Below are positions 57,327-61,001 of a DNA stretch of 64,000 nt, piece after piece. The stretch covers positions 124,001-188,000 of the forward strand of contig CAMELR010000001.1 in assembly GCA_945923775.1 (NCBI GenBank). Reading direction: 5' to 3'. The position numbers and the translations under genes were made by a program. The number at the start of each line of letters is the position of its first letter. The first letter of the stretch is position 1. Below the pieces are notes generated by a model that saw only the letters and a list, made by a program, of their open reading frames with translations, made no database searches and was not told the DNA's origin. Source of the DNA: an uncultured Clostridia bacterium (GTDB lineage: Bacteria; Bacillota; Clostridia; Oscillospirales; Ruminococcaceae).

Positions 57327-59051
57327 ATGAAACTTGAAAAGTTAGTAGGCGACCGCTTCAAGCAGCGCCCCTCCGACTGCAATATCGACAGCCACGCGCT
57401 GATGATACGCGGCGGCTACATGAAGTACGTTGCGAACGGCATTTTCTCCAGCTACATGCCCTTAAAGCGCATAACCCGCAAGATAGAGCAGATAATCCGC
57501 GAGGAAATGGACGCTATCGACGGCCAGGAGGTATCCTTCCCTGTTGTAATGCCTGCGACCCTCTGGCAGGAGTCCGGCAGATACGAGAGCATCGGCAGCG
57601 AGCTTCTCCGCTTCACCGACCGCAACAAGGCGCAGATGGTCCTCGGCATGACCCACGAGGAGGCCGCCGTGCAGCTCGTGCGCGAGTATGCGAACAGCTA
57701 CTCCAAGTATCCGTTCATGATCTACCAGATACAGACCAAGTTCCGCGACGAGGCGCGTCCCCGCGGCGGACTTATCCGCGTGCGCGAGTTCACTATGAAG
57801 GACGCGTATTCCTTCCACACCTCCCAGGAGGATCTCGAGGAATACTACATGCGCTGCCACAAGGCGTATGAGCGTATCTACGCCCGCGCCGGCATTCCCG
57901 AGGTAATTTCCGTAAAGTCCGATTCCGGCATGATGGGCGGAAGCATCTCCCACGAGTTCATGCTGCTCACTCCTATCGGCGAGGACTCCATCGCGATATG
58001 CAAGGACTGCGGATTCCGCGCTAACATGGAAGCGGCCGAGTCCATAATCGAGAACACCCGCGACGCCGAGAGCCAGCCCCTCACCGAGGTACACACCCCG
58101 AATATCCACACCATCGAGGATATCTGCGAGTTCCTGCACACCCCACAGGACAAGAGCTGCAAGGCGGTAGTATACCAGCGCAACCACGACGACAGCTACG
58201 TTGTAGTATTTATCCGCGGCGACCTCGACATCAACGAGACAAAGCTCACAAACTTCCTCGGCTGCGATATCCACCCGGCTGTTATCACTCCTGAGTGCGG
58301 ACTCAACGCGGGTTACATCGGGCCGTTAGGTCTCCCCGAGGGCATGACCGTGCTGTTTGACCGCTCCCTCCAGAACACGAACAACCTCTCCTGCGGCGCA
58401 AACAAGGAGGAGTACCACTACACCGGTCTCGACATCGACCGCGACTGCAAGAATGTCGAGTACCACGACTTCGCGAAGATCATCGAAGGCGGTATCTGCC
58501 CGAGCTGCGGCAAGAGGCACATCACCATCTCCCGCGGCATCGAGGTCGGCAACATATTCCAGCTCGGAACCAAGTACACCAAGAGCATGGGCATGACCTA
58601 CCTTGACAAGGACGGCAACACTCAGACACCTATCATGGGCTGCTATGGTATCGGCGTAGGCAGACTTGCCGCTTCCGTATGCGAGGCTCATCACGATGAT
58701 TACGGTCCCATCTGGCCGATGGCGATTGCTCCGTGGCAGGTACACATCTGCGCAGTACGCGCCGACGATGCCGAGGTCAAGGAGAAGGCGGACGCACTCT
58801 ACGAGGAGCTTCAGAAGCGCGGCGTAGAGGTGATCTACGACGACCGTGCAGTAAGCGCAGGCGTAATGTTCTCCGACGCCGACCTGCTGGGAATCCCGCT
58901 CCGCGTTATCGTAAGCCCGAGAAACCTCAAGGACGGCGTAATCGAGATCTCCGCAAGAGACAAGAGCTTCAGCGAGAAGCTGAACCCCGCCGACGTTGCA
59001 GACAGGATCCAGGAAAAGATCGCTGAAATGATGCAGTTCGACGTTGAATAA
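57327..59051 (+). CDS. proS: prolyl-tRNA synthetase
   Basis: LMIRGGYMKYVANGIFSSYMPLKRITRKIEQIIREEMDAIDGQEVSFPVVMPATLWQESGRY...FRDEARPRGGLIRVREFTMKDAYSFH. Confidence 0.97.
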   Translation: MKLEKLVGDRFKQRPSDCNIDSHALMIRGGYMKYVANGIFSSYMPLKRITRKIEQIIREEMDAIDGQEVSFPVVMPATLWQESGRYESIGSELLRFTDRNKAQMVLGMTHEEAAVQLVREYANSYSKYPFMIYQIQTKFRDEARPRGGLIRVREFTMKDAYSFHTSQEDLEEYYMRCHKAYERIYARAGIPEVISVKSDSGMMGGSISHEFMLLTPIGEDSIAICKDCGFRANMEAAESIIENTRDAESQPLTEVHTPNIHTIEDICEFLHTPQDKSCKAVVYQRNHDDSYVVVFIRGDLDINETKLTNFLGCDIHPAVITPECGLNAGYIGPLGLPEGMTVLFDRSLQNTNNLSCGANKEEYHYTGLDIDRDCKNVEYHDFAKIIEGGICPSCGKRHITISRGIEVGNIFQLGTKYTKSMGMTYLDKDGNTQTPIMGCYGIGVGRLAASVCEAHHDDYGPIWPMAIAPWQVHICAVRADDAEVKEKADALYEELQKRGVEVIYDDRAVSAGVMFSDADLLGIPLRVIVSPRNLKDGVIEISARDKSFSEKLNPADVADRIQEKIAEMMQFDVE

Positions 59052-59056
59052 GCAAG

Positions 59057-59087
59057 ATCCCCCGGGGCGCCGCTCCGGGGGATTTTT
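59057..59087 (+). terminator. intrinsic terminator after proS
   Basis: ATCCCCCGG/CCGGGGGAT + TTTTT. Confidence 0.85.
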
Positions 59088-59096
59088 ACAGCGAAA

Positions 59097-59121
59097 ACCG
59101 GGACAGCAGACCTGCCCCGGT
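59097..59121. repeat. 25-bp direct repeat copy 1 (itself a hairpin)
   Basis: ACCGGGACAGCAGACCTGCCCCGGT, identical to 59311-59335. Confidence 0.95.
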
Positions 59122-59127
59122 GAGACC

Positions 59128-59304
59128 GTCGAAAAAGTCACTAAAGTGACTTTTCCGCCGAACATCCGCGCCGCGCGCACGGTTTGTCGGCAAAGCCGAC
59201 AAACCGCACACTTGCGCGGATAGAAGTGTTTTTTGCCCCGGGAAACCCGTGGCAAAAAACGGATTTCAAATGCCTGCTTCGCAGGCAGAATTGACTTTTT
59301 CGAC
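59128..59304. repeat. multi-hairpin palindromic intergenic element with 13-bp terminal inverted repeats (candidate MITE/REP-like or structured RNA)
   Basis: TIRs GTCGAAAAAGTCA / TGACTTTTTCGAC; internal stems CGGTTTGTCGGC/GCCGACAAACCG, ATCCGCGC/GCGCGGAT, TTTTTTGCC/GGCAAAAAA, TGCCTGC/GCAGGCA, AAAAGTCAC/GTGACTTTT. Confidence 0.85.
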
Positions 59305-59310
59305 AAACTG

Positions 59311-59335
59311 ACCGGGACAGCAGACCTGCCCCGGT
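59311..59335. repeat. 25-bp direct repeat copy 2 (itself a hairpin)
   Basis: ACCGGGACAGCAGACCTGCCCCGGT, identical to 59097-59121. Confidence 0.95.
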
Positions 59336-59339
59336 TTGT

Positions 59340-61001
59340 TTATTTGTTGACCTCAACAAGCATTTTGTCGAATTCTTCCTGGGTTATCGGCTTGGAGTAG
59401 AAGAACCCCTGTGCCGAATCGCAGCCGCAGTCGCTCAGGAACGAAGCCTGCTCCGGAGTTTCCACGCCCTCCGCGATAATATCGAGGCCGATATCACGCG
59501 ACATCGAGATCGTGTGCGAGATTATCTTACGTCCACGGCTGGACTCCATGAATTCTGAAAGGAACCCGCGGTCTATCTTAAGTACGTCGAACTGCGTCTT
59601 TTGCAGCATGTTCAGCGATGAATACCCGGAGCCGAAATCGTCCATCAGCATGGTGAATCCCGCGTCCTTCATCTTCTGAACTACGTCGGAAACTCCCTCG
59701 GCGTCGGTGGTTTCGGTTATTTCAAGCTCCAGCAGCTTTATCGGGATATCGTACTTGTTCACGAGGTGCAGCATTTCGCTGACCACGTCGAAGGTGTGTA
59801 TGTACTCCCGGGAGATGTTCACCGATATCGGAACCGGCTCTATTCCCTTGTCTATCCAATCGCGGATTTTCCTGCACGCGCTCTCCCAGATTATCTGGTC
59901 GAGTTTCAGTATGAATCCGTTCTCCTCGAACACCGGAACGAAATCCGCCGGAGATATCATGCCCTTTTCCGGGTGGATCCACCTTGCCAGCGCCTCCGCA
60001 CCGATTATCCGCTTGGTGGAAATGCTGAACTTCGGCTGTAGGTACATCACGAACTGACCGTCAAGCAGTGCGTTCATCATGTCGTCCTCGATGGACTGCT
60101 TCTTGTGAAGCTCGCTCTTCATTCTTCCGTTGAAGAAGCCTATGTTGTTCAGAGCGTTCCCCTTTATCGACTGGCGCGCCAGCGCGGCGTTGTCACCGTG
60201 CCTGCGTGTATGCAGCGACCTGTCCTCGACTATCGCAACGCCGAAAATCAGCCTGTACTCCATGTTCTGGAATCCGGTAAGCATGCTTTCAAGCCGATGT
60301 ATAAAATCAAGCAGGTCAGAGTCGCTTGAGAATGTAGTCACCACCATGAAAACATCTGCGTTCAGCCGGGCGAAGGGCTGTTCCTCGCTGCAAATCAGTC
60401 CCAGCGTGCTGTACAGGAATTCAAGAAGCTCGTCTCCGGCTTCAACGCCGTATTTTTCGTTGATAAGCTTGAACCGCTCCACATCGAACTGGATAAACGC
60501 TATCTCCTCGTCGGGGTGGCGCTTTATCATCTCCGCAGCTTCGTCGCTGAAAATGCGCGGGTCGCGGTCTGACGAAAAGCCGCTCAGCACGCGCCGGTCA
60601 AAAAGCTCGCGGTTTGTATAGGGTCTGACGGTGCCGTGTACGGCGATTATCCTGCCGCCGTCGTCCTTCAGGAAATGCGCGTAGAACCCGCACAGCCGGA
60701 ATTCTCCGTCCGCTGACAGCTTCATGCGAATATCGGCGCTGAGGCTCATTCTGTCGCTCCCGGAGATCGTCCCTTCCTCTATACACGAGGAAAAGATATT
60801 GAAGGAAGGCAGGGACTGCGGGTCGATCAGGCCGCTTTCGCGAAGATAATCCAGCGGGTCGCCCGAGACGTCTGCAAATATTCCGGAACCAGCGGAAACG
60901 ACAGTCCCCGCTGCGCAGTCCCAGAGGAAATGCGCGGAATTCTTGTCACGATCCAGCATTTCATAAAAGAGCTTCATGTCCTTTTCTGTGATATCACTCA
61001 T
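59340..61001 (-). CDS. GGDEF (degenerate)-EAL domain protein, probable c-di-GMP phosphodiesterase
   Basis: EAL motif GAEALARWIHPEKGMISPADFVP..., DDFGSGYSSLNML, IIAEGVET; GGDEF site reads RLNADVFMVV. Confidence 0.9.
   Translation of the reverse strand: MSDITEKDMKLFYEMLDRDKNSAHFLWDCAAGTVVSAGSGIFADVSGDPLDYLRESGLIDPQSLPSFNIFSSCIEEGTISGSDRMSLSADIRMKLSADGEFRLCGFYAHFLKDDGGRIIAVHGTVRPYTNRELFDRRVLSGFSSDRDPRIFSDEAAEMIKRHPDEEIAFIQFDVERFKLINEKYGVEAGDELLEFLYSTLGLICSEEQPFARLNADVFMVVTTFSSDSDLLDFIHRLESMLTGFQNMEYRLIFGVAIVEDRSLHTRRHGDNAALARQSIKGNALNNIGFFNGRMKSELHKKQSIEDDMMNALLDGQFVMYLQPKFSISTKRIIGAEALARWIHPEKGMISPADFVPVFEENGFILKLDQIIWESACRKIRDWIDKGIEPVPISVNISREYIHTFDVVSEMLHLVNKYDIPIKLLELEITETTDAEGVSDVVQKMKDAGFTMLMDDFGSGYSSLNMLQKTQFDVLKIDRGFLSEFMESSRGRKIISHTISMSRDIGLDIIAEGVETPEQASFLSDCGCDSAQGFFYSKPITQEEFDKMLVEVNK

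Follow-up and report, generated by a model that had tools for sequence, protein, structure and literature searches.

Within the IS1182 family of insertion sequences, IS1272 and TnSha1 of Staphylococcus insert at hairpins, often those of terminators, without sequence preference, and the target hairpin is deleted with no duplication left (PMC5678879, PMC4923244). Duplication of the whole hairpin was sketched as a hypothetical pathway b (PMC5678879). IS1182 elements are over-represented between convergent genes (PMC9208149), which fits a targeting of terminators. The locus described here lies between two convergent genes in a window of 64,000 nucleotides (the whole stretch of DNA that was analysed) from an uncultured bacterium of the Clostridia. 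It very probably represents one copy of an IS1182-type MITE that duplicates an entire terminator hairpin as its target site and is moved in trans by a transposase of the IS1182 family.

Layout of the locus and copies of the element

The original prediction had described identical 25-bp direct repeats enclosing 13-bp perfect inverted repeats and five stems, and had read the block either as a mobile element, non-autonomous and lying at a terminator, or as a dispersed structured RNA. The direct repeats and all five named stems were found as described (Table 1), as were the 13-bp inverted repeats (59128-59140 and 59292-59304). The analysis adds three points: the repeats are copies of the target hairpin, the element has ends of the IS1182 type, and the structure belongs to the minus strand. 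Because the element stops exactly at the direct repeats, its terminal inverted repeat is 18 bp long, of which the 13-bp block represents the inner part plus one base; the two 18-bp ends of the window copy are imperfect inverted repeats, matching at 14 of 18 positions.

Table 1. Coordinates of the element, its helices and its neighbours in the window
Feature	Position	Strand	Basis or remark
proS, flanking gene (class II tRNA synthetase with editing domain)	57327-59051	+	Pfam
proS intrinsic terminator, outside the element	59059-59087	+	hairpin followed by T5
Target-site duplication, left copy (complete hairpin of the terminator type)	59097-59121		unrelated hairpins in the same arrangement at other copies
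MITE, 189 bp	59122-59310	- (structured strand)	alignment of 63 copies; in most of them no base lies between the ends and the direct repeats
Left terminal inverted repeat GAGACCGTCGAAAAAGTC	59122-59139	+	15/18 identical to the IS1182 end CAGTCTGTCGAAAAAGTC of L111
Terminator-form hairpin AAAAAGTCAC-TAAA-GTGACTTTT overlapping the left terminal repeat	59132-59154	-	helix 5, covariation; also in autonomous IS1182 elements L087 and L111
Helix P1, 3' strand (pairs with 59214-59221)	59164-59171	-	covariation
Conserved AAGUGUG / UGCGCGC helix flanking P2	~59174-59180 and ~59207-59213	-	covariation
Hairpin P2	59180-59206	-	stem seen in sequence, and covariation
Helix P1, 5' strand (pairs with 59164-59171)	59214-59221	-	covariation
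Hairpin P3 (U6/A6 base, upper stem strongly covarying)	59228-59260	-	covariation
Hairpin P4	59271-59287	-	sequence and alignment
Right terminal inverted repeat CAGTTTGTCGAAAAAGTC	59293-59310	-	17/18 identical to the IS1182 end CAGTCTGTCGAAAAAGTC of L111
Right copy of the target-site duplication, then T-rich tract	59311-59335		hairpin identical to the left copy
GGDEF/EAL protein, flanking convergent gene	59340-61001	-	Pfam

Each of the two 25-bp repeats is itself a hairpin. The right copy is directly followed by the T-rich TTTGTTTATTT, and this hairpin is therefore probably the terminator of the target. Since proS is followed by a terminator of its own before the left hairpin, the interval holds three terminator-like hairpins besides the one that belongs to the element. 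No third copy of the 25-bp repeat was found in the window with up to three mismatches (0 expected in shuffles). A shorter variant of the element adjoins the orthologous GGDEF/EAL gene of another species (L241, G024:C124:3700-4420); this is a separate insertion, and its right side is without a second copy of the hairpin.

The genome of the host, a gut bacterium, contains about 10 copies of the element; the genus contains more than 100, which are found in 10 of 43 genomes with up to about 20 copies per genome. An exact-match scan with a conserved stretch of 26 bases (one genome per species) yielded only metagenome-assembled Oscillospiraceae and Clostridia. Several variants were observed. The copies L039, L066, L068 and L069 of G024 form a subfamily with about 24 extra bases after P2 (AGAATAAGGCGTAGCCGTTTCTGA), and the right flank of L041 shows the element, a terminator-like hairpin and the start of a second element, apparently a tandem insertion. 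Copies from other families of the order (L172-L190 and L251-L290) often have the start GCCTCGCAGAGTT and the P3 loop GACATGYGC in common, and orthologous copies are kept between species.

The structured core

When the window element was folded and compared with shuffles, z was -10.6 (plus strand) and -12.2 (minus strand), and none of 200 shuffles was as stable. Across the aligned copies the stems vary together, whereas certain other bases are invariant. Read on the minus strand, the core has the architecture P4-P3-P1/P2, followed by a 3' terminator hairpin. Within the genus both sides had changed in 28 of the 60 pairs on this strand, and 95.7% of cells were paired (87.2% in shuffles). The covariation score, a check named in the original prediction, was 0.232 compared with 0.091 after shuffling; in a set taken mostly from other families, whose alignment was fitted to the structure, it was 0.523 compared with 0.167. 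Covariation exceeds both shuffled and slid controls, the shuffles being of a kind that ignores relatedness.

Model R1 extended the group to a second genus (G151), in which P1 is completely different in sequence. With model R2, a sample of 396 genomes of the order gave 45 with the core, belonging to several families, and a class-wide sample of 392 genomes gave 4, three of these four being from the same order. Related elements elsewhere in the order are flanked by duplicated hairpins in 6 of 25 cases (1 of 150 controls). The core yielded no Rfam family above the gathering score; the matches to miRNA precursors, NsiR1, His leader and RAGATH-23 were weak and far below the cut-offs. An origin of the core from the end region of IS1182 was also considered, and models R1 and R2 matched nothing in the IS1182 loci searched. 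The core is a conserved, covarying structure and not degenerate IS sequence. A pseudoknot ACACTT/AAGTGT adjoining P1 in the window copy was dropped, because other copies have ACAGTT while AAGTG is kept.

Two readings of this structure were weighed. According to the first, which is compatible with the MITE assignment, the interior would be a functional non-coding RNA that hitchhikes on the element or is maintained by it, the element being mainly a vehicle. The structure is kept across several bacterial families while almost all of the paired sequence has changed, the bases CUUCU, AAGUGUG and UGCGCGC are near-invariant, and at a locus common to two sister species the orthologous copies L251 and L258 differ by compensatory changes in several stems. 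The minus strand gives the better fold in 63 of 63 copies and has G-U pairs in the consensus (13 G-U cells compared with 2 A-C cells outside the genus), and the proposed minus-strand transcript would carry the terminator hairpin at its 3' end. Against this stand the weak wobble asymmetry within the genus (23 G-U compared with 27 A-C cells), the fitting of some alignments to the structure, and inverted loops, which point to hairpin processes at the DNA level; a sigma-70 promoter match was absent in or near the window copy, and a preferred orientation relative to the neighbouring genes was sought and the copies were unbiased. Taken together, an RNA function of the core is given a probability somewhat below even. 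Of the dispersed structured RNA foreseen in the original prediction a good part is upheld. Slightly more tentative is the fuller proposal that the core constitutes an undescribed class of structured non-coding RNA, which would have been spread through the order by IS1182-type miniature elements between duplicated terminators, an insulated slot, and would be under structural selection at fixed loci after loss of mobility.

According to the second reading, which is possible and on balance doubtful, the structure would matter as DNA and no RNA would be made: either template switching keeps the quasi-palindromes perfect, or the transposase reads single-stranded or cruciform DNA. This is consistent with the loop of P2, which flips between the complementary AAA and TTT, a mark of hairpin inversion, with the small number of wobble intermediates within the genus, and with the reading of hairpins attributed to one member of the transposase family (PMC5678879). 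Mechanical repair of palindromes is, however, not expected to give conserved bases outside the stems, strand-specific G-U pairs in the consensus or a terminator hairpin at the same end. The core most plausibly represents an RNA, or a strand-specific structure in the DNA, kept under selection by the element, and a function appears likely. It offers a widespread conserved nucleic-acid structure, outside Rfam, that is now open to functional testing.

Hairpin duplication and the connection to IS1182

The flanks of the 62 full-length copies differ from one copy to the next and nearly always show one complete palindrome on both sides (e.g., AGAGCGGCGCTGAGCCGCTCT, AAACCGCCGAGTTTTTCTCGGCGGTTT and AGGCACACGGTTTTTCCGTGTGCCT at different copies). 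A flanking direct repeat scoring at least 14, mismatches allowed, was present at 54 of the 62 copies and at none of 620 mismatched pairs of left and right flanks. The called flanking repeats (n = 56) had a median length of 26 bp, with 54 of them between 19 and 33 bp, and 40 were perfect; they abutted the left end of the element in 50 cases and the right end in 49, and their mean predicted hairpin energy was -15 kcal/mol. The duplicated hairpins are preceded by A-rich and followed by T-rich sequence and are thus terminator-like. As the length of the repeat varies, a fixed stagger is ruled out; the length of the repeat is that of the palindrome. A clear duplication was absent at 6 of the 62 full-length copies. 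At L008 (G000:C20:43211-43371) and L171, sites that are apparently not terminators, short direct repeats without hairpins were seen (7 bp TATAAAG; 14 bp TAGTATTTGTATAG).

Empty sites were found at orthologous loci and hold a single hairpin. In G007 the element L083 lies between two copies of AGGCGGGTGACTTTATGTCGTCCGCCT, and the orthologous place in G010, G000, G015 and G021 is without the element and carries a single, diverged version of this hairpin. The element is likewise absent from the orthologous place of L003 in G015. G015 is also without the element at the locus that corresponds to the window copy, where a single hairpin (ACACCGGGCTGC...GCAGCCCGGTGT) stands; this hairpin is similar to the 25-bp repeat, with a divergence too great for certain identity. 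A block present as a single copy, or repeats standing without the element, were looked for and not encountered. The element is very probably mobile, with duplication of a whole target hairpin, and the mobile element inserted at a terminator that had been proposed from the repeats is strongly supported by its copies, duplicated hairpins and empty sites.

Ends of the type CAGNNTGTCNAAAAA occur in the autonomous elements L086, L087, L106, L109, L111, L222 and L223 from the same genus and family and from related bacterial families, all of which are bracketed by duplicated palindromes of roughly 20-34 bp; other autonomous IS1182 elements examined, several of them cut by contig ends, had no such direct repeat. 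The element L111 is 1510 bp long, has CAGTCTGTCGAAAAAGTC at its start, a sequence matched imperfectly by the ends of the window copy (Table 1), and encodes DUF772 and DDE domains (Pfam). In L087 and L111, those that were inspected, the terminator-form hairpin overlaps the left end as it does in the MITE. The IS1182 model NF033551 scored above the cut-off in G025 and G136, with ends matching the MITE. The element is classed as a MITE by its small size, the lack of a transposase gene inside it and ends common to an autonomous element, together with dispersed copies, duplications and empty sites, all observed directly, as are the like duplications around autonomous IS1182 elements. It is classed as a derivative of IS1182 by the cognate transposase with matching ends in G025 and G136 and by its palindromic targets. 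Deletion of the target hairpin without duplication, as in IS1272, is not what was found, since 54 of the 62 copies have the hairpin to their left and to their right.

The following course of insertion is proposed from these patterns. An IS1182-family DDE transposase acting in trans would bind the 18-bp ends and then excise or copy the element. Its target would be defined by structure, a hairpin or cruciform in the DNA, and not by sequence; in practice the structure would be that of a transcription terminator, and by a presumed order of strand joining the whole hairpin would end up on both sides of the element. With a hairpin on each side both neighbours would keep a terminator, and the insertion should be nearly harmless. 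The MITE-bearing genomes of the genus, which are draft assemblies, contained only fragments of IS1182 and no intact transposase with matching ends, so that mobilization in trans is what we infer; draft assemblies often lose IS copies. Matching ends were also absent from the other transposase fragments of the host genome.

The missing intact partner in the MITE-bearing genomes could mean that the element is moved by a recombinase or by a transposase of another family, its IS1182-like ends being convergent. This is quite improbable, since 15 to 17 of 18 end bases agree with IS1182 elements, and these further resemble the MITE in their unusual kind of target duplication and in the hairpin adjoining the end. 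The flanking genes converge and each could own a terminator, yet a reading of the repeats as unrelated, look-alike terminators around ordinary intergenic structure is refuted by the same arrangement with different hairpins in 54 of 62 copies (0 of 620 controls) and by empty sites with one hairpin.

Comparison with known systems

The IS1182-type MITE shares with IS1272 the transposase family and the targeting of hairpins, whereas the whole hairpin is duplicated in the former and deleted in the latter; the copies look like the outcome of the hypothetical pathway b (PMC5678879). The autonomous elements L086, L087, L106, L109, L111, L222 and L223 are alike in their ends and duplicated palindromic targets. 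These autonomous elements carry a transposase and are without the structured core. A search of the accessible literature returned no whole-hairpin duplication for IS1182 and no such element in these bacteria. The IS1182 duplication lengths in ISfinder range widely, and whole-hairpin duplication may therefore already be known there. The copies provide dozens of natural cases of what had previously only been sketched as a possibility in the accessible literature. They suggest how such elements spread without harm to their neighbours, as a terminator is left to either side of every insertion.

Group IIC introns are retroelements that insert after terminator hairpins, which they do not duplicate. 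Insertion at terminator hairpins is thus common to them and the MITE, which is without a reverse transcriptase or an Rfam match. To our knowledge, none of the NEMIS/Correia, ERIC and CIR repeats has a multi-helix core conserved across bacterial families. They are likewise small, non-autonomous, dispersed and rich in stem-loops, with ends and targets that differ from those of the MITE (PMC2229807). The mobile or repeat candidate MRSC-65-2 is a dispersed covarying structure that is thought to be selfish, RNA or DNA being undecided (PMC11109978). By its description it is set apart as a single long stem with UYCCGG repeats, whereas the MITE combines several helices with ends of the IS1182 type.
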